DNA from: Branchiostoma floridae
Taxonomy: Eukaryota > Chordata > Leptocardii > Amphioxiformes > Branchiostomatidae
Direction of reading: 5' to 3'
Length of the DNA stretch: 64,000 bases
Assembly (NCBI RefSeq): GCF_000003815.2
Contig: NC_049987.1
Location: forward strand, 20,104,773 to 20,168,772
The notes below the pieces were generated by a model. The model saw only the letters and a list, made by a program, of their open reading frames with translations, did not search any database and was not told where the DNA came from. The position numbers and the translations under genes are program-made. Below are positions 2,088 to 25,600 of the stretch, one piece after another. Position 1 is the stretch's first letter, and each line of letters opens with the position of its first letter.

Positions 2088-11800
<9,713 letters not shown>

Positions 11801-12041: not shown

Positions 12042-12114
12042 TATACGAGCAATCGCTGTTATTGTTTACATCCGGGGTATTCGGCGCACGAGCGCTGACT
12101 GGTAGGCAAAAAGC
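12042..12114 (+). repeat. left terminal inverted repeat region of the two-gene transposon
   Basis: Outer block at 12042-12056 and inner block at 12097-12114, separated by about 40 bp of less conserved sequence. Both are matched in inverted order at the right end. Confidence 0.8.
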
Positions 12115-12427
12115 GTTAGGAGATCAGATTACTAATTAGCATACCGGCGCGGAAGCAGATCGTACTGTTTACGCGAATTTGCGCATTTTCAGCCACGTTT
12201 TTATCGCATCCATGGGATTTTTTCAGATTTTGTATTTTTTTCACTACTTCTTAGTCTTTTTTTTTTTTTTCTTGTGTAATATTTTGGGAGAAAATGACCC
12301 TTGCCCTCTTGACTTCCGTCATGTGTTTCCGGTTGTTTTGATTTTCCCGCCGTACGGGTTTCTGTCATCCGTTCCGGGCTGTTATATTTCTGTTCCTAAT
12401 GTGGTTTAATTAATACGTTTAATCAAT

Positions 12428-15400
12428 ATGAGTTCTTCAAACAGCTACATTAGCTCTTTGGAGCCTAATGACCGAACCAGGTATTTTGAGAAATTAATGG
12501 TAAGTGTCGAAGACGCCGGCGATAGTTCAAACCCGGAAGTGACTGGTTCGGCGGTGACTGGTGACGGTGTACGCCTACCTGACCCATACAGTCTGACAGG
12601 TGAGGATCATGTGTACATGTGTTTCTAGATTTTGATAAGGTAGATTTTTGTGTAAGATAAAGGTTACAAAAACATGAGTACGTGTAAATGTGTTTGTTGC
12701 TAATCTCTAGAAATTCTGGCTACGTAACGTTATGTTTATTATCATTTGTATGTTATACAGGTTGGAAGGATGATTTGAGCCTCTGGCCAGATACGGACTA
12801 TGGGTGCATCTACACCTACCTAATCGAGGCTCCAGGTCCGTTTAACGGAGAAGCCATGAAAGCCTATAAATCCCTGGAGGCGTACAATCTCTTTATAAGT
12901 GGCCATGTGAGGGAGTGCAGGTACCACCCTATTGGAAAAAATGTGAAGGTCTGCTTCCTTAAGGCCAAGGTTGTGCCAGGTGGGTGTTGGAGTGCATTGG
13001 AACAATATTTCTACTTACATGTACCTGTAGTGAGAACTCTTGAAGATGAAGAATGAGATGCGTGATTAGTGTTTAACTGTCAGATACGTTTGTATATTTA
13101 CTGTATTATCTTTTTTTTCTGTTACATTTGTGTTTCAGGACAGAGAGTAACAGAGACTCCTCACAACCCATGGGTGTGTTTGACCAAAAAAGAGGGTTAT
13201 GTCATGGCAGCTCACTGCACTTGTATGGCAGGGTAGGTAATATAACTGCATTGACCATCATATCCAAAAAGTCACATTTTTATCTAACAGTGTTCTCGTC
13301 AGATGAGGTCCATGGCAAGAAACAGTTTTAGAAATAATGAAAGTCAAACTAGTACTCACCTGTAAATGTTCCTCTGTATATTTCCAGGGAGGAGCGACCA
13401 TGCAGTTTGTATGTGGCAAGATAACTGTCTTAATTTTTTTCCTTGGTTCATGTTCTTGTGCTTGATGGTTTCCAGTTGTATTTGTACCTGTTGCAAATGC
13501 ATTTCTTCTTGTTGATGTTCTTGTTGCAGGTTTTACTTGTTGATGTGTTTCGTTTTCTAGGTAATTTGGAGTTATCAACAGTTCCTGAGAGTGAGTATAC
13601 TAACACATATCATCATGTAGATGTAGATAATGCTAAAAGAAATGTGTATATAGTAGAAATATTCAAATATCACAGAGACTTCCATAATGAGAAGATAAGG
13701 CAAATCTTTCATTGTACTGTGAAGCTGGCCAACTTATCCGTTCCTTTTACCATTAACTCTAAAATTGCTCCTGACTATAGTACCTATAATGTATACTCAT
13801 TTTTTGTTATATTTCAATGTAGATTGGGAGAGGTCTGCAGCCATGTGGCTGCACTGCTGTTCGCAGTGGAGGCCTCCAGGTCTCTTCAGGAAAAACGGAC
13901 GTCATGCACCAGCAGAAAGGCCGTGTGGAACAAATATTACAAAGATAAGGTCTGTTCATATTTGGGCATTATAATTGAGTAGAATTTTTTTCAATGTCTA
14001 CAATTTTTTTGCCTAAGTAGACTGTTATAACTTACATTAATGAATGGATTTCTTTGCTTCTACAAAATCATGTGGCATTTACATGTATCCAATTCACAAT
14101 ATATAGCACTACACTATAGATTTACAGCAATATAGTAGATGTTCCTAGCCTGGAGTCCAGCCTTGTTGTGCTTTAGTCCACTCCCAACGGTGGCTACCCC
14201 GTCAATGCCATGGGGTAGCGACCTTTGGGAGCGAACTAAAGCACAACAAGGTTGGACTGCAGGCTAAGATGTTCCTCTTTGTAAAGTGTAATATCTGACA
14301 TGGCCACTGTATAATGCTTTTTCTCACATATATTATTGATAATTCATTTTGTGGATTATTTCTTTCAGGTTGATCCACAAAGGGCTGAGGACATGGACTT
14401 TTCGCACCCTAAACATGGAGTCCAGATCAAGAAGGCGCGCCGGAAGCCGCAGTGTGATGTGCCACCACTCAGTGAAGAAGAGGCCGCTTCTGCTTTCTCA
14501 CAACTGAGGAAGCTGTGTCCCACTGCCAGTGCTGTCATTAAAGAGGAGGAGGACACAGACACAGCATCAGAAGATGAGTCAGATGTCAACACAGAGACGC
14601 TTCCCCCTGTGGTATACAGGTCTTGTCATCCAGCCAAAGTCCCTGTTACTAGTGTTAGTGTAGACAGCATCCTTGAGGATGTTCGGTGCAACCCCGAGCA
14701 AATCACAAACCTCAACAAAGCTACAGTGGGGCAGTCCAAGTCTGCTTTATGGCGTCAGCAACGCAAGGGTCGTGTGACTTCTACATCCATGCATGATGTC
14801 CTTCATGCATCAAACCCCACCACTGCAGTACGGAAGGTCATGCAATATGACTGCAAGGATTTGAGCCAAGTGAGTTAACTGAAAACTAGTACAGTGTACA
14901 CTTGCAGGAAGCCATTTTTCGTAGGTAATTAAGGCACACAAAGAGACAACATTACCCTGTATATTGGAACATGTACCATAATAATCCCAGAGCAAGTGTA
15001 GCTCTGATCTTTATTTGGATTTAAACAATACCAGGAGTCTAAATATTTCTGCAAAGTGTGACAGTCTAAATGTTCAGTCAATGCGAGATAGTGTCATATT
15101 AGAGATGTAATTCATTTGTGCTTTCTATGTCAGAAATTCTAAATAGGGAATTTCACTTTCAGGTTCCAGCTATACAATGGGGGATGAAACAGGAGGAGAA
15201 GGCAAGGCAACAGTACCTGGAAGCTACCTTGTGCATCTGCAAGGATGTGAAATTGGAGGAAGTGGGGCTCATTCTCTACAAGGATTTTCCCTTCATAGGT
15301 ATAGCTAATTTTGGCTCTTACTTCAAACTTATGAAGTATAGTACATGTAATTGAGTACCAACTACACAATGTCTAATTGACTTATGATTTTGTTGATGTA

Positions 15401-16121
15401 ACAATGAAATACATGTACTTGTTTTAACAATTGCACTGTATTCGTACCAAGTGAATATGTGCCATTTGCAGCATTTGGCAAGTATCAAAAGTAAGTACAT
15501 TATGTTCATGTTTGAAATATCAGAAACTTTGCCACTAATTTGAACATTACTGTTGTATATATAGGTGCATCTCCTGATGGGATGAGACAGTGTTCATGCC
15601 ATGGAAGAACTGTGATAGAGATCAAGTGCCCATACAAGTACAGGGACATCTATCCTGCTGCAGATCTGTGTCTATCAGATGCCAACTACTGTTTAGATAA
15701 GGATTGTAAGCTAAAGACAGGGCACAGATATTACACCCAAGTCCAGACACATATGCTGGTTACCGGTGTCTCAACATGTGATTTTGTAGTGTGGACTAAT
15801 GCAGGCATGGTTGTAGTAAATGTTCCAAGGGACCAGTCACTGTTAAATGTAATGTTGTCTACATGTGTCCAGTTTGTAAAGTCCAGTCTTATCCCTGAGA
15901 TACTGACCCACAAGTTACAGTGTGGAGACTCTGGAGTAGATGTGACTTTCCAGGAAGATGATGACCCAAACAAACGTTACTGTTCTTGTCAGAAACCAGC
16001 ATATGGTAGGATGGTAAAGTGTGATAACAATGAATGTGAGTCAGAATGGTTCCATTACAAATGTGTTGGCATCAAGAGAAAACCAAGGGGCCATTGGTTC
16101 TGTCCCAGTTGTCAATGCTAA
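12428..16121 (+). CDS. SWIM zinc finger - YqaJ exonuclease-like - PHD finger protein of the transposon
   Basis: Seven exons join in frame to 601 residues: 12428-12599, 12761-12979, 13139-13232, 13823-13949, 14369-14869, 15163-15298, 15565-16121. The SWIM finger is CTC near residue 157 paired with CSH near 167. The YqaJ (lambda-exonuclease type) core shows WGMKQEEKA (about 377-385), the metal-binding GASPDG (about 417-422) and VIEIKCPYKY with the E-x-K pair (about 433-442), so the catalytic Asp, Glu and Lys are present. A C-terminal PHD finger of ING-like spacing spans about 555-601 (CSC, CDNNEC, HYKC, WFCPSC). An acidic linker (EEEDTDTASEDESD) precedes the nuclease. It probably processes DNA ends during transposition; that role is inference. 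The next gene, convergent, is the transposase. Confidence 0.9.
14146..14266. mobile_element. foldback MITE with TAGCCTG ends and 9-bp target duplication
   Basis: The two halves form a near-perfect hairpin, from TAGCCTGGAGTCCAGCC to its inverted copy, with a short loop around 14205. It is flanked by identical AGATGTTCC at 14137-14145 and 14267-14275. Too short to code; same family as the element at 42667. It sits in an intron of the YqaJ gene, so it landed after the large transposon existed. Confidence 0.85.
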
Positions 16122-16365
16122 ATCCTACTGGACAGTTTGAAATACTAAAAATACTAGTATAACAATAGAAGGCATTTTACAGTTTTATGTCATGTTTTAT
16201 AAAACTAATGTAAAATAAGTAAGAATTGTACTTTGTGGTATACTTATTATATTGTAGTGGGCTTCCCAAAAATTTGTTTTGTGTCCCTTTAACATTTTAC
16301 CTTCAATCTCAGTATTTTGATATACAGAAAAGGCCAGCTCGTGCAGACAACATTGCCATTAAAAA

Positions 16366-19309
16366 TTACTTGATTAGCTTTGGAAGTAAGTTTGTAAGAG
16401 CCGCACAGATAACAACACTGTCACTGAGTAGAGGGGCAAATGTTAATGGACAGATTTGGCTGAGAATTTGGAAGTTCTTGATTCTTTCAATTGCACGTTC
16501 TACATGAATTCTTAGAGTTGATATCTGTCTGGCATCTTGGACGATACGCCCCGGGAGTTGTTTCCTTCCTGTGGTAAATGGTGGCATAACTAGTGTTGCT
16601 CCTTTCAGGGCAAGTTCCTCAGAAATGGTGAATCCCCGATCTGCCATAATCATATCACCATATTCCACTTTGTTATAGAAACGACTTTTTAGCGTAATGT
16701 CTTTATCAGAAATTCTTCCACCCCAGGAACTGGACAGAAATGACACTGCTCCATAAGGTGTAATACCTACCAGAAATTTGAACGTATGATGGTGTTTGTA
16801 GTTACTCCAGGTCTTTGCTCGGGTCTTTAAATTGTATGGCCTCTCAGTGAAAATCTCTGAGCAATCAATGATGACTCTACAGTTTGAGTATTTTTTTTTC
16901 CGAAATTTTTTGGGAAGATTGCGCTTTACGGTTTCCTTGGACGGCCAATGAATCAGGAACTTTAGTCGGACAGCTAAGATTGGAATACAACGGTTTATGA
17001 CTTTTGAAACTGTGGAGGCAGAAACACTAAATCTCAAAGCTAGATCAGCATTTTTGAGGCCTAGTCTCAACTTCATGAGAGTCATGAGTATTTGATCCTG
17101 CTGACACATGGACTTTAGAGGAGCAATGAAATCACTAACAAGTCTAAACACAAACATAAACAGTGCAACAGTAGGTATTCCAGTGAAGAGCTTGCATTTT
17201 GCATCTGTGAGATTGGAGGCTGATGTTGATGATTTCTTGATTTGTTCTTGAAGGTGATCACGTTCTTCCCTAAGGTTGTCAGCTTCACTTTGAAGGGACT
17301 CGCAAAACTGTTCCAACTTACATTTCTCCTCTTGTACTTTTGTGAGCTGTTCTCTCAGAGTCTCTACACTTTCAGGAAGGGGGTCTCTCAGAGTCTCTAC
17401 ACTTTCAGGAGGAGGGTCAGCGATCATTTCTTCATCTGAAATAAAGCAAATCCGAAGTTCAATGAAAGTGCTATGTGATTATGAGTGTCATATATCTGAA
17501 CTGAACTGAATGTTCTAAACTCTGATTCATATGTATGTATTGTTGTTTCGATATTTTACTCATGCAGGTTGCATGCTTCTCTACTTGATTCACATCTATA
17601 TCCCCACTCCGAAAACCAAGCGGATAAACTTTGTAGCAAGTAGTCTTGTGTGTATGGTATGTGATTCATGTTGAATAAGTGACAAGTGATAGATTTACTT
17701 GTTGAGCAAGAATGATAGATTAAACTGTTGATCAAGAATTTATATGTTTAGGATTACTGATTGTATCCATTAGACACTTTTCTTATTCCCTCTGTAATGC
17801 CCTTACCATTTAGTGATGTAGGTGGGGCTTCATTCTCTGATGACACCCGCAGCCTTTTTGCTGCACGCATATACCTGCAAACAATGAAGCATGTTGTAAG
17901 TTGTAAATCAAAGTTGCATGCTTTGTTTCCTACATACATTCTGTTAGCATAGCATTTAGTGATTACTGCTGTGAATGTTATGAAATATAAAACATTTGAC
18001 TAGGTGTAAACTCTAACATGAGTAACTTACAGGATCTTTGTGAGATTTAACTGAATCCTTGGTAAAACTTTCATGGTCATCTTCTCAGGCAAGGAGGTAG
18101 AGTATAGCAATGTTTCACACAGGCATGAACAGCCTGCCTGCATGAACAGCATGAGCAGTAAATCAAATTTCAATAAAGAAACATTGAAAACCCCAATGTT
18201 ACCTACCGATCTTTCTTGGCAACTGGGTTTCTTGAACGATTGCAACTTGCTGAGGTTGGGAGGTTAAACAAGCTTGGGACGTAATCTGGATCTGCAGGGT
18301 CTTTAGAAGGGTTCCCTGCAATGCAAGAAGCAAAGAACTTGTCAGTATTATAAACATGATTTTAAAATGAGGTGGCAATTGGTCTTGTGGTTAGGGTGTA
18401 GGACTCATAATCCAAAGATAAGTATGAGTTGGAATCCCTGATAGGTCACTTTGTTGTTGTGCCCTTGGGAAAGGTACTTAAACCATACTTTACACCTATT
18501 TCCTCACTTCACTAAGGTGAAAAATGAGTACCTGGCTTCGGCTACACACCTCGGCATGTTAAACTGAAAGAACCCACCACACTTATCGAAAAGAGCAGGG
18601 GATCATCCCGGTGTGAGTGGATCAAACTCCACAGTCTGGTTCTTTCTTTCCCCTGCACTATCCCACAATGGTCCGGACCAAGGTGGAGGTCTACCCGCTG
18701 GGGGCCTCCCCACACAATATGCTCCAGTAGGGGCCATCTGGGGGTATTCCCATGTAGATGTAGATGATTTTAAAGACATTTTAAAACATTTGTAGATGTC
18801 TTCGTCAATCAGTTAAGTGATGTACGTTATACTTCTGGTATACTATATATGTATACGTCCATCCCAGATACTTTACCACTATTTATAAGTCAGACCCCCC
18901 CCCCCTCCCACGTGGACGCGCTGTAAAACTTTGATACATGTAACATTAATATTCACTATCCTTGATATGGCATGAATCAGCGACAAAACTTACTTAAGCT
19001 TTCCGCAGATGTGTAACGAAAAGTACACTATTACATCACGAAAAATGTATTTATGCAAGGGGGACAACAACAAAATATAAAACATATAGATCACAAACCT
19101 GAGATGAAATGGTCGCTGCACACTCTCTCGTGGCCTCGCGGTGTCCACGCCGCGGTCGGGTTTTTCTTTCCCTGCTCAAAATCTGACCTTTTTAAGGCTC
19201 TAAGCCATGCAGCCCTTCGTCCTGGTTCCGCAGGGATTCTAAAAAACTTCTTTCTACTGCCTTTATCCTTCCGGTTAGTACAATTCAGCGCACAACAACT
19301 GGTCGGCAT
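16366..19309 (-). CDS. THAP-domain DDE transposase
   Basis: Four exons on the minus strand join in frame to 485 residues: 19099-19309, 18207-18315, 17807-17874, 16366-17435. Exon 1 is a THAP zinc finger (CCALNC, then VCSDHF giving the C-x2-H half); exon 2 completes it with DPADPDYVPSLF. A Glu/Lys-rich coiled coil follows at about 159-197, then a helix-turn-helix-like region and a DDE_Tnp_4-type (Harbinger/IS5-like) nuclease core: IIDCSE (Asp about 320), MADRGF (Asp about 395), RIHVERAIERIKNF (Glu about 442). All three catalytic residues are present. An upstream in-frame ATG at 19328-19330 is possible, but MPTSCC starts like other THAP domains. It binds the element ends and catalyses transposition (family knowledge). 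A SINE interrupts its intron. Confidence 0.92.
18370..18745 (+). mobile_element. tRNA-derived SINE nested in the transposon
   Basis: A tRNA-like head (GGTGGCAATTGGTCTTGTGG) is followed by TGCCCTTGGGAAAGGTACTT, CCTCACTTCACTAAGGTGAA and a tail block ending around 18745; the same modules occur in the SINE at 52936. It lies between transposase exons, antisense to the gene. Confidence 0.6.
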
Positions 19310-19358
19310 GTTTGCGTTTCCCGCGCGCAACTGGTGGGCGAGGAGGGTTCAACCAGCA

Positions 19359-19419
19359 GCTTTTTGCCTACCATGACGTCACGTGACGTAACCGTGACGT
19401 CAGCGCGATCGCTCGTATA
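19359..19419 (-). repeat. right terminal inverted repeat region of the two-gene transposon
   Basis: Inner block 19359-19373 and outer block about 19405-19419 mirror the left end. Between them is a cluster of TGACGT/ACGTCA words, including TGACGTCACGTGACGT, a plausible subterminal transposase-binding or CREB/ATF-like cluster. Confidence 0.78.
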
Positions 19420-19693: not shown

Positions 19694-22600
19694 ATGTCGT
19701 CTGACGTTCCCGTCAGTAATTCCTCATCACCCGACTGGAAGAGACCTCCGAAAATCCTCACAATCAAACGAAGGAAGAAGAACGGACAGCCAACTAGCAA
19801 GCTAACCGTCCCAGACGGTGTCTTGAAGACGAGAAATGTCTCAGAAGACTCCAGGATGAAGGCGAAAAGGAGAAACCCTTTTGGTTGTGGCTCCGTCCCG
19901 AAGAGATCGAATGTTGGGAAGTGTGATGATTCTGTGCGGACATTGTCGTCTGATAGAGAGGAAGACAATGGTGATGTGGAGGGGAAACTTCTGGCAGGGT
20001 TGTCTCAACTAGAAGAGGATCAGGTAATGTTGGATTCAATACAAACTGATACTGAAAGGTCTACGGTCTATTAAATATAAATACTGGTTAGTCTACAGAT
20101 ATTCAGGTGTGCAAGACTTGACAAAACCCTGGTAACGCAGTTACCTGGCCAAATTACTTCAGTCACTATTTCATATACCACATGTGTATTGATAACACAC
20201 AGTATATACGTTTGTGTTGAATATCATGATACAATACAATGTCATACAGCATATTCACATACTTGTATGTTGTATATCTATATGTAACCACCTCTATCAA
20301 TGATTATCCACAGAAACTGCAGATATCTTCAGACACTCCTGATGTGTGTCCTACTACTACTACTACTTCTACTACTGCTGCTACTACTAGCACATCAGAG
20401 GATCTATACAATGTCTGTCCAAATCCATCTCAACCACAAAAAGACAGCCAAGCAAAGGTACAAGAACCCAGTGGTCACATGAAAGTTTATCAGTGTTGGT
20501 AGAAGTCATCATTTTTTAGAGAAATGATCAAAAAATAAGAAGGCTAAACACAACACTCAAGTAGCATATTCATTTTATATCTGTACTTTAGTTTTGCTTT
20601 TATAGTGCAGTGTGCAGCATACATGTACTAGTACATGTACAGCTTAATATGTTTCATGTAAAGCCACATGTCTGTATATAGCAATTTTTCTTTGTTTTAC
20701 ATAGATTCTTATGATGAGAACTTTTCACTTCAGTTAATCCATCTGGTGACACATTGTCTTTTTTAGATTGATGATGAAAATGCTGAAAGTTCGACAAAAC
20801 CTGGGAGCCGTGAACTCCCTGAAGATTTGAGCCTGAAGTCACGAGTGAGGTTCACCTCCCCCCATCCCTTCACATGGTGCAGTAGGATCAGGACTACAGA
20901 CCAGGCTGCTGGGGTCTGTGGGTTTGTCAGGTGCCAGGACAGACACACACTGGCAGATCCTGAAGTAAGTATGGCAAAAATGTCCCTGCAGTTCCTTAAC
21001 AGGATGTTAGGGGTCTCAAAACTATGTCACCTTTTCCCATAGACAATCCAAGTGTTTATTTCTGAAGTTTGAGATTTGTGTGTAAATGTAAAATGATACT
21101 TTCCATCGTTAAAGGAATAAAGGGAAGAAGAAATAAAGATGGGAAGAAAAAAAAAAGAAGTAACAAGAAAGACAATGAACAAAAGAAAGAAAAGAATCAA
21201 GGAAAGGAGGAAAGAATAATAAAGGCGTATTTTTTCACTGTTAATTTTCCCACTGTGACACATGTATCTGGTTATGTTCTTTTGAATGATCTGTTCTAAA
21301 TTGCACTGTATGTAAGCAAGAGAATATGCTTAATTAAGTACACATGCTGAATTATCGTTTTAGATATGAAACTATATGTCTGTTTGTTTTGTTGACCATG
21401 TAGAGTCAGGCTTCCAGTTTCCAACAGTGTGTGATGACATGGATCCATCCCAACCTACCCTGGCTCAGACTCTTCCCTAGGATGGTTTCCACTAGTAGGA
21501 AGATGGACAGGTAAAGCTAAGGGCACAACCAGCCGTTAGTGCAGTTTTTCCGTACATTTTTTTGGGAGGTCACATCCGCCACATATTTCTGAAAACGTTC
21601 AGGCTGTACAGGGCAGGCGTGTCGCCCATACTGGCACGTACAAGGTGCGAAGCCGCAGCCCGATGGCACACAAAGTTTTGCCTGCACATAAAGACTTCTA
21701 CAGCGTGTCTGCATGCTCCAAAGTCCGTCGCATTCCCTACAAGTTCGCATGGAGGGGGTACTTACCACTTATGGATCCCAAAATATTGCCCACGTTTTGG
21801 CATGCAGACAGCACATATTTGCGCATACGGCAGATTGTGCCCTTAGCTTAAGAGGGGCTTTCACGTTTGGAAATACTGAAATGTAGATACATTACATGTA
21901 TAATAATTGTAACTGCATCAAACTTCATGTTGGTGTTCCTATGAGATAATATGAAAACATGTTCAATAACATTTACTATTAATAGCACAATTAGCATTCT
22001 TTGTATAAATCATATTTATTTCATGCTTGATTACACTGCATTTTGTAAAGGGACAAGTCCTTTGTCTCCTGTATAATACATTAATATTGTGTCTTTCACA
22101 CAGCAAAGGGACACCATCAACCATAATCCCTCACATACAAGAGGCACTGCTTTCTGACTGGTAAGCACATCAGAGTCTTCAAATGCTTGTCATTTCTAAA
22201 TTAACAGGGGCAAGGGAGGCAATCACCATAATAACTGAACCAGAGTTAGAATATTGTGGAAACCAGGCTCAATGTACTCATACAATATTCATTGTTACAG
22301 TAGTAGCTAATTATGTGGTGGATTCATTGTTTAGAATTATCTTTTACACATCCAGTTAATTCTCAAAGTCTGCTTAAAGTCTGTTGTCTATCAGGCATCA
22401 TCCGCAAAGCTTCTGACTGGAGTGTTGCTTCTTGCCACTATACATGTATGTAGCCATTGTAGGTGGCACTTTAGTGGTGAGAACACAGTCCTAAATGAGG
22501 TCAGCATAACGTTTCAAATTTTGAATATTTCCTGTTCCAGGACCAACAGTTTCCGGTCAGTGTTCCAGCTGCTTAAGGCCCAGATGTGTCCGTATTTCTA

Positions 22601-25600
22601 TGTGTGTGGACACCAATTCACAGTGCTGTTCCATGGAGTTCAGATAGGGGGCACTAAATCCTTGGGTGCACTATTGACTCCAACATCAAGGGGACTCAGG
22701 GAGGCTCTGGATAATGAAGGTTAAAGTCCTCAGTGTTTCAAAGTCAAACTGGATTTTGATTGAAATTCCAGATATATTACTTTTGAGTTGATACTTTGAG
22801 TCTAATAACAAATACATGTAGCCAACACAAATGCTGCATATTTAGAAGGTCAGCCAATGGTTAGCCATTTCAACTAGCATCCACTAGTTTTCGTCAGTGA
22901 CACTGAAGTGATCTGGAAGAAGCAGGTCTTTTATACCCTTACTATGAATTAAGACGATTTTAGATGTCCAATACGAAACATTGTAACAGCTTTTTGGCAT
23001 ATCTTATTACCTGGATGTCTAACCCTCATCAACGTATTAGAAGGTCCGTTTCTTTCTTTAAAGAATATTTTATTTAGTAAAGATATTTTGCCAAAAATAG
23101 ATGAGATTTAAATTTCAAGTGCAATCTAGACCATGTTTGGAAAAGCCACAACCAACTTCCATATATGGTGCTATGGTTAGCTGTTATTGTTAATAACCCC
23201 CCCCCCCCCCCCGACTTAATTTAATTTAAATTTCCTTTCTTTTTTTCCATCAGGAGTCAGCTACAAAATGCCCCTAGCAGCCAGACCAGCTGTCCAGTCT
23301 GGTGGTTCAGGTCCCAGCAGAAAGTTGAGCACAGATGCACAGCAGGAAGAGACTGGTAGTGAGGCATGTCCTGAGAAAAAGTAGGTTTTATTTAGACACA
23401 TTCATTTGTTTGATGTTAAATATCAGTTGAAAGATTGTTATATAATTACTTCTCAAGTACCTGTATTCAAGTAGCACAAAAGAAATGGTTCAATTTTTTG
23501 TACCAGCAGTTTTATAATGTCCTTTCATAAATTACTGTTATGCCTGATGATGTCTTAGGATGAAGATATTCTTGTAGTCCTTGTGACACAAACTGTCACT
23601 CTCTACTCTACGGAGCCCCTTCCCACAGAACCTGTCTGTCAATCTTCAATCAGGGAACTGATTTGACTTTAAAAAGTCAGAAGTCAGAAGTTGCACAATA
23701 GCATTCCAAGGTTCTTTGTTTATGTGAAACTCAGTCCAACAGAAGCACACATGCAGTATGTATAAATCAACAAGATAAGGATGACTTGGATGTGTATGTT
23801 ACCCTGACAGCCTGGACCCTACTGATACTAGCACATTCATTCAGAACCTTATAGTGCCTTGTGTTGGTGTTCCTGTAGCAAGGTATACTTGACAGGGAGG
23901 TCTTGCCAGACTTTCCCTTATAACGTGTTTGAGACACCTTCTTGAACTTCAGACTCCCATGTTATGTCCTTTCTGAAAGAGGAGTGCAGCCCCACCAAAA
24001 ATGTCCTGATCCCAGGACTTGAAACGGGGTCTCCCAAGCTATTGGGACCGGGAGCGCAACTATATCAGGCTGCAGGGACAGCCTTTTTTATCTGATATAT
24101 TATTGTTTGAATCATTCCTAGTGAACCCAGAGATGACATGAGCGATGATGATGATGATGATGACATCACCATAGATGACTCCGGAGCCTCCTGCTGGTTA
24201 GAGAGTATGGGACTAGACAAGAGCAGCTTTCCTGAGCTGGACCCTAGGAAGGTTAAAGTGTATCCTTTCAACAATTCCATGCCACAACATTTCACATTGT
24301 GGGTAAGCTCAGAGGTCACATGTATGTTCCGCTGAAGAAACAATGCCAGAATGTGGTTGTATTTTTGGCAATGGCTCTGAGTGAGCCGAATTGATGCTGA
24401 CAGGACAAAGAACATTATAGTATAATAGTCCAAACATTGTATGTTATAGGGATTTTGAGTATTACTTTAAATCCTAGTATGTGGACTTCAGAACACCCAA
24501 TATCCACAAGCATGCACCAAAACATATTACAGATTGATGACTGATTCATTTATTTTATCTTGATTTTGAGGACATTATGTGTCAATGTCTAAAATCTCTC
24601 AAAGAAGAAATTAGGAACAGTTTAGTTTTCCGTAACACTGACAGTATAATACGATATTACGTATATATCGTATAATACATGTTACGTATATTCATAGATA
24701 TGTGCAGGGAGTTCATTTTGCAGTATGATCGAAAACTTGCTTTTAGGGCAGTATTTTAAGTTCAGGGTTGAAACCATGCTCTTGTACACCATTTGTGTAG
24801 TAAATTAGTACTACAATGGAAACACAATCATATTTTAGTGCAATGATAATATCCAAATTTACCGTACCTTGACTCCAAAACCAGCCAGAGAACCAAGATG
24901 AAGAGTGTGGACCATTTCCCAGAATCCCTTGTGCAGGTGGAGGGGGGCGACGCCCAGGCCCTCTTCAACTTCCTCATCAACAGTAAGAGTCTGGTCAGCC
25001 AATCAGGGCCTCTGGCTGGGGTCCCGCCCACCATTCTGGCTCCTGTGGCCTTTGAAGGAGCAACTCTGCGGGCACTCAAGGTTGGTGAAAAGATCACTGT
25101 GTTCTTGGTTGAAGTTATATGTTTAGTTTATTGTCTATCACAAGTGACACATACTGTGAGAATTTTTAAAACAAATTATTATTTAAGCTTTTTTAGACAA
25201 ATTGTTTAAAAGAAAATTATTACCTTTTGTATCTAAAATTATTAAACACCAGCTGTGTGCTGGAAGTGTATTTTGTAAGTTTTGTGTCTTTTGTTGCCTT
25301 TCAAATCACGCTTTTACTTCCTATTCAAATTCAAGTCATAGAGCCATTGTTGACACAAAACTAAACATTTGTACTTTTTGTTGCTAAACATTGGCTTAAT
25401 TACCTGGTCTCCACCATGTGGAAAGTGGGTTTTTATTTAAACATGTACTCGCTTTGCCTTTGTTGGGGACATTATCATAAGAGTGCATTCATGCTAACCT
25501 AAGGTTTTTGGTTTGAATTCCCTGATGTTACAGTGATACGCAACCAATCTTGTGTCCTTGGAAAAGGCACTGTACATGAGTTTCCTCACTCCACCCAGGT

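Follow-up and report, generated by a model that had tools for sequence, protein, structure and literature searches.

Why does a DNA transposon carry, on its accessory nuclease-like protein, a PHD finger of the type found in ING proteins? The question is raised by a stretch of 64,000 nucleotides from the amphioxus Branchiostoma floridae (contig NC_049987.1, positions 20,104,773 to 20,168,772), referred to here as the window and numbered from its first letter, in which a complete transposon of the ISL2EU type occupies 12045-19416 (7,372 bp) and is flanked by AT dinucleotides. The element encodes a DDE transposase and a YqaJ protein with the PHD finger at its C-terminus. As the best explanation, and on balance a probable one, we propose from the sequence features described below that this PHD-bearing helper would tether or license the transposition complex at active promoters, with the nuclease working on DNA ends.

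Both genes of the intact two-gene transposon claimed in the original prediction were rebuilt in frame, with 601 and 485 residues. They are convergent, and all of their introns are GT-AG and splice in frame. The coding features are as follows.

12428..16121, + strand: YqaJ accessory gene, 7 exons, 601 amino acids (rebuilt gene model; Pfam)
12428-12599, 12761-12979, 13139-13232, 13823-13949, 14369-14869, 15163-15298, 15565-16121, + strand: exons of the YqaJ gene
13216..13844, + strand: SWIM-like motif CTCMAGLGEVCSH at residues 157-169, interrupted by intron 3
14143..14269, no strand: foldback of 127 bp, 84% self-complementary, within YqaJ intron 4; many copies carry it
15963..16118, + strand: ING-type PHD finger, residues 550-601 (ING4, 4e-19)
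16366..19309, - strand: transposase gene with THAP, coiled coil, HTH and DDE, 4 exons, 485 amino acids
19309-19099, 18315-18207, 17874-17807, 17435-16366, - strand: exons of the transposase gene

The transposase scores above the curated Pfam cut-offs for DDE_Tnp_4 (3e-42), HTH_Tnp_4 (3e-17) and THAP (3e-13), and the YqaJ domain is likewise above its cut-off (4e-19; 69.9 bits, cut-off 22). The catalytic residues expected from the first reading of the sequence are all present, namely D320, D395 and E442 in the transposase and D421, E435 and K437 in the YqaJ domain. That reading had also given the YqaJ protein a SWIM finger and an ING-like PHD finger. The latter stands, whereas SWIM is present only as the pattern C-x-C-x(n)-C-x-H, with a Pfam score (0.049, 13.6 bits) under the cut-off of 19.6. 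One scan of viral contigs, with the YqaJ protein as query, gave no relative. An AlphaFold model of the last exon alone had a pLDDT (predicted local distance difference test) of 38 and was discarded.

In a search of PDB sequences, the C-terminal 52 residues of the YqaJ protein match ING PHD fingers first, with ING4 at 4e-19 and 29 of 52 aligned columns identical. The best 20 of the 31 matches listed are ING proteins or their yeast homologues. The account of the ING3 PHD finger in PMC5000080 gives Tyr-8, Ser-15, Met-19 and Trp-31 as the cage and Asp-23 and Glu-30 as the contacts to Arg2; these align with Y555, A562, M566, W578, D570 and E577 of the YqaJ protein, five of the six being kept. With the ING1-5 fingers described there it thus shares its sequence, the Cys4-His-Cys3 pattern, the cage Y, M and W and the Arg2-contacting D and E, and it differs in its position on a transposon nuclease-like protein, in an Ala for the cage Ser and in having one residue fewer right before the finger (PMC5000080). 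The finger may therefore read histone H3 trimethylated at lysine 4 (H3K4me3), which would make the accessory nuclease comparable to the PHD of RAG2.

The genome's own ING gene (L049) is identical to the finger of the element in 29 of 53 aligned columns. Over 51 codons, 17 are identical, 12 carry silent changes and 22 replacements. The nonsynonymous divergence (dN) is 0.37 and the synonymous divergence (dS) is not calculable; silent sites are apparently saturated, and part of the constraint on the PHD may date from its time in the host, prior to capture. A PHD search of the genome returned 20 places, 16 of which belong to the element's own family, and the 201-residue frame of the PHD exon is open in 15 of these 16 copies. 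Of the remaining four, L049 is the ING gene, L050 an ING3-like piece, and L051 and L052 are two similar fingers; none of them lies near a YqaJ place from the family search described below. L051 and L052 are PHD-like fingers on a single contig (G000:C9), at ~398 kb and ~681 kb.

The ends of the element and the surrounding target site were resolved as follows.

12045..19416, no strand: complete ISL2EU-type transposon, 7,372 bp (the same ends in all 7 copies read at both ends; empty sites with a single AT)
12043..12044, no strand: left target-site duplication, AT (end pairs, empty sites)
19417..19418, no strand: right target-site duplication, AT (end pairs, empty sites)
12045..12056, + strand: left terminal inverted repeat, ACGAGCAATCGC
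19405..19416, - strand: right terminal inverted repeat, ACGAGCGATCGC
12100..12114, + strand: subterminal block TGGTAGGCAAAAAGC, 15 bp, exact in both ends, a candidate binding site of the transposase (THAP)
19359..19373, - strand: inverted copy of the subterminal block, exact match over 15 bp

The matching ends in two blocks that had been predicted were confirmed, the terminal inverted repeats agreeing at 11 of 12 positions and the subterminal block exactly. Allowing up to two mismatches, the block occurs twice in the window against 0.15 occurrences expected from shuffles, one of the two being given because the pattern was derived from the window sequence itself; a shorter form, GCCTACCA, is visible in miniature inverted-repeat transposable elements (MITEs). 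The limits first proposed (12042..19419) did locate the element, and its exact borders are corrected here to 12045-19416. AT stands on both sides of all seven insertions with both ends, and the adjoining bases differ, the left flank being A in 9 of 18 left ends and the right flank T in 3 of 13 right ends. Because the base beside AT varies in other copies, the extra T and A within the earlier limits represent a chance extension. When the flanks of another copy (L014) were joined via a single AT, they fitted two paralogous element-less sites, one at 91% over 197 bp without gaps and the other at 81% with several indels, among them a single base next to the AT, and joining via ATAT scored lower at both; the AT is thus most plausibly a duplication of 2 bp. 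Within the sequence around already extracted loci, no empty site was found. Beside the right end, a cluster of TGACGT/CACGTG-type motifs at 19374-19404 (TGACGTCACGTGACGTAACCGTGACGTCAGC) might act as the transposase promoter.

The genome searched comprises 513 Mb in 431 contigs. A search with the whole element found at least 68 matching pieces, including five further full-length copies; 27 of 2,390 initial candidates were scored, which makes the copy number a lower bound. Pairwise, the six full-length copies are 9-20 substitutions apart over ~7,380 positions (0.12-0.27%) and are therefore very young, given the heterozygosity of 3.2-4.2% reported for amphioxus (PMC12500494). Both reading frames are open in five of the six, the sixth having a frameshift in the transposase, and a dead relic was rejected on these intact copies. 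A pattern of 30 bases from the left end, with up to three mismatches, has 139 matches genome-wide against none for the reversed pattern, at least 33 of them exact among the matches listed. For a related version of the left end there are 73 exact matches. Three of these and one place with a closer variant were read (L053, L054, L055 and L056), and all four are MITEs of ~200 bp, with both ends intact in three and the right end decayed in one. In sum, the element is an ISL2EU-group cut-and-paste transposon that has moved recently.

By the core features that PMC4482050 gives in its treatment of ISL2EU (PHIS superfamily), the assignment made in the original prediction is supported: the element shares the AT target-site duplication, the THAP-HTH-DDE transposase, the YqaJ second gene and the short terminal inverted repeats. 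It differs in starting with AC rather than the usual GG, in having no clear preference for an A and a T flanking the target (A/AT/T) and in being 7.4 kb long compared with an average of ~4.8 kb. The AC start is not disqualifying, since the source describes GG as the usual start. A fish survey reports ISL2EU as undetected in amphioxus, though Han et al. indicated it (PMC9179366); this genome contains ten further kinds with two genes, YqaJ and transposase. None of the terms PHD, SWIM, zinc finger and plant homeodomain occurs in the main text of PMC4482050, and PMC9179366 mentions neither a PHD finger nor SWIM. A PHD finger on an ISL2EU YqaJ protein was not found in the open-licence literature searched; Repbase entries may mention one.

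The original prediction had regarded the addition of a PHD finger and its role as potentially new; such a finger is not unique to this element, as relatives in the same genome show. A search for the YqaJ family gave 38 places, of which 18 were read; apart from the window, they fall into 13 kinds, nine of them examined with Pfam and the other four by pattern alone. Four of the 13 (L040, L041, L044 and L045) carry a C-terminal PHD finger of a sequence type that differs from that of the window, above the curated cut-off in L040, L041 and L045 and below it in L044; L040 and L044 are close kin in the tree of YqaJ domains. Two C-x-C fingers in L039 are weakly scored by Pfam, and the Cys-rich end of L008 is not recognized by Pfam. 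Within the stretches read, no PHD finger was detected by Pfam in L001-4, L005-7 and L042 (for L001, the stretch excludes the ~0.9 kb before the transposase) or by pattern alone in L043, L046, L047 and L048. A SWIM-type pattern occurs in two of the 13 kinds; in L040 and L044 a SWIM-like motif was not found by pattern.

Among the 88 of 296 transposase candidates scored, relatives of the transposase lie close to 10 of the 13 kinds and none lies near L039, L043 or L047. The gene arrangement is convergent in eight of the ten two-gene kinds and divergent in L040 and L044. Two of nine inner branches in the YqaJ-domain tree (12 rows) are well supported, and this tree leaves the number of PHD gains and losses unsettled. 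In a tree of PHD fingers (10 rows, no starred branch), a split (80/100) separates L040, L041, L044 and L045 from the window finger, the ING fingers and the diverged fingers of L039, which weakly suggests separate origins of the PHD types. The recurrence of C-terminal PHD fingers, of two or more sequence types, on YqaJ helpers likewise suggests more than one origin. The L039 locus itself (G000:C311:6600-10100) has a long open frame that encodes a SWIM-like motif, YqaJ, the pair of PHD-like C-x-C fingers and QEPSSQAQ-type repeats in tandem; after it comes a fragment of an Ulp1/C48 peptidase (Pfam, 2.4e-7), and some stretches of the locus are N.

The site occupied by the window copy lies between two host genes, whose first coding exons are listed here.

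11756..11800, - strand: first coding exon of host CDC5L (match to CDC5L, 1.7e-13); its start codon, at 11800, lies 244 bp away from the element
19694..20023, + strand: first coding exon, delimited by reading frame and a GT, of the probable host gene DONSON; 277 bp separate its start codon from the element

The identity of the second gene is taken from an open frame at 24850-25209, ~5 kb downstream, which matches DONSON (1.6e-15). The two genes form a divergent pair that would be ~520 bp apart if the element were removed. The CpG observed/expected ratio was used as a promoter proxy in place of gene annotation, and the first 500 bp were compared with the interval of 600-1100 bp in 28 flanks of 1,100 bp from 20 insertions. 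Over all 20, the near value exceeds the far value by 0.169 (p = 0.0026; 0.005 and 0.032 with other cut-offs), a difference that sets of randomly placed points within the window reach in 0.15% of 2,000 trials. Because the promoter idea came from the window copy, the comparison was also made with the other 19 insertions, giving 0.844 near the junction and 0.710 far from it (p = 0.0068, 0.0088 and 0.0685 with three cut-offs) and a higher value near the junction at 14 of the 19. Some flanks, of young copies and MITEs alike, are repeated sequence, and the CpG signal around young insertions is suggestive only.

Many copies of the element are internally deleted or rearranged, and one repeats ~557 bp. 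Interrupted template copying after excision, as in P-element-like transposons, would give such copies. In 24 loci (L015-L038), 20 distinct internal junctions were recognized, of which seven are without filler; all seven show BLAST overlaps (1, 1, 1, 3, 3, 5 and 8 bp), with a mean of 3.1 bp against a chance mean of 0.71.

In the mechanism that we favour, the THAP finger of the transposase would bind the end motifs (TGGTAGGCAAAAAGC blocks), and the DDE domain would cut at the ACGAGC ends and join them to AT. The partner protein, combining the SWIM-like motif, a lambda-exonuclease-like YqaJ nuclease and the PHD, would act with the transposase. Its PHD would bind H3 tails with trimethylated lysine 4, by which the complex would be tethered to, or licensed at, active promoters. 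The nuclease would trim or resect DNA ends in excision and donor-site repair and thereby favour copying from the sister chromatid, and end resection could yield the internally deleted copies observed. More tentative is the specific version of events in which an ING-type PHD was captured onto the accessory nuclease and directs the complex to H3K4me3 promoters, in convergence with RAG2 and with the PHD type of the sister YqaJ proteins.

Parts of this arrangement are known from other systems. To our knowledge, RAG2 has no YqaJ-type nuclease. The RAG1/RAG2 pair shares with the element a DDE recombinase and a separate PHD partner, and differs in both the transposase superfamily and the partner; as presented in the preprint PMC11844651, its PHD reads H3K4me3, and a PHD on a partner protein can both recruit and restrain a DDE recombinase. 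Ginger1-9_HM is also a DNA transposon with a PHD finger, but its transposase is integrase-like and combines Ulp1 and PHD within the same protein, according to its description in PMC2836005. KolobokE shares a DDE transposase and a lambda-exonuclease-like PD-(D/E)xK nuclease but belongs to another superfamily, judging from the account of it in PMC9587614.

Several observations weigh against promoter tethering by the PHD-bearing helper. The finger is slightly under the generic Pfam cut-off for PHD (3e-4, 21 bits against 24), and A562 takes the place of the Ser of the cage. The PHD tree does not place the window finger and the ING fingers in a clade of their own, although such a clade is not rejected (approximately unbiased test, p = 0.22), and seven of the 13 other YqaJ kinds have no PHD within the stretch read. 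When the window copy is left out, p is 0.07 with one of the three CpG cut-offs. Twelve flanks of related MITEs show the opposite trend, with CpG values of 0.37-0.52 within 400 bp and 0.52-0.72 farther away; greater age and filtering by selection may set the MITEs apart, a different partner may have mobilized them, or the CpG signal may be weak. As to the nuclease, 13 of the 20 internal junctions have 30-1,107 bp unaligned between the pieces and are uninformative on microhomology. A 5'-3' nuclease would favour repair by interrupted template copying, but the junctions do not single out YqaJ, nor would microhomology.

The proximity of insertions to promoters could instead reflect open chromatin or AT-rich linker DNA, with the PHD uninvolved. 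The insertion set is small and comes entirely from the PHD-carrying family, and MITEs with related ends lack the CpG pattern, both of which speak for this possibility; it leaves the conservation of an ING-type PHD unexplained, and we hold it to be possible but rather unlikely. A functional PHD without a targeting role is similarly doubtful. Such a finger might hold the nuclease to the transposase, inhibit the complex until histones are bound, as reported for RAG2, or contact H3 independently of methylation, as reported for the finger of PiggyMac. Precedents exist in the RAG2 PHD, which blocks target DNA binding and suppresses transposition in the experiments covered in PMC11844651, and in the cysteine-rich domain of PiggyMac, which binds H3 weakly regardless of methylation according to the corresponding results in PMC8086355. 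The missing CpG signal at MITEs would fit as well, but the signal at young insertions would not, and a pure protein contact would not need the five ING cage and Arg2-contact residues that are kept.

That the PHD is a chance passenger from a host ING gene, unused by the element, appears very improbable. Its location at the extreme C-terminus, in the last exon, and the seven kinds without a detected PHD agree with this idea, but the dN of 0.37 with apparently saturated silent sites relative to host ING points to constraint, even if part of it may predate capture, and the second type of C-terminal PHD on other YqaJ elements argues for repeated use. A host gene caught between transposon ends, to which the seven exons and the host-type chromatin domain might point, was rejected with near certainty, since the YqaJ-PHD gene travels with the same inverted ends in near-identical copies on different chromosomes, and transposase relatives lie close to 10 of the 13 other YqaJ kinds. 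The test that the original prediction set for its own refutation, a YqaJ host gene lacking inverted ends or an absence of other copies, did not refute it.

The ING-type PHD finger on the YqaJ protein thus offers a testable lead linking this protein to chromatin. If the helper does tether the complex through its PHD and steers insertion to promoters, the element would be a natural H3K4me3-guided transposase system and, beside RAG2, a further case in which a DDE recombinase complex includes a histone reader. It would then inform how selfish DNA picks its sites and might serve as a tool for gene delivery.

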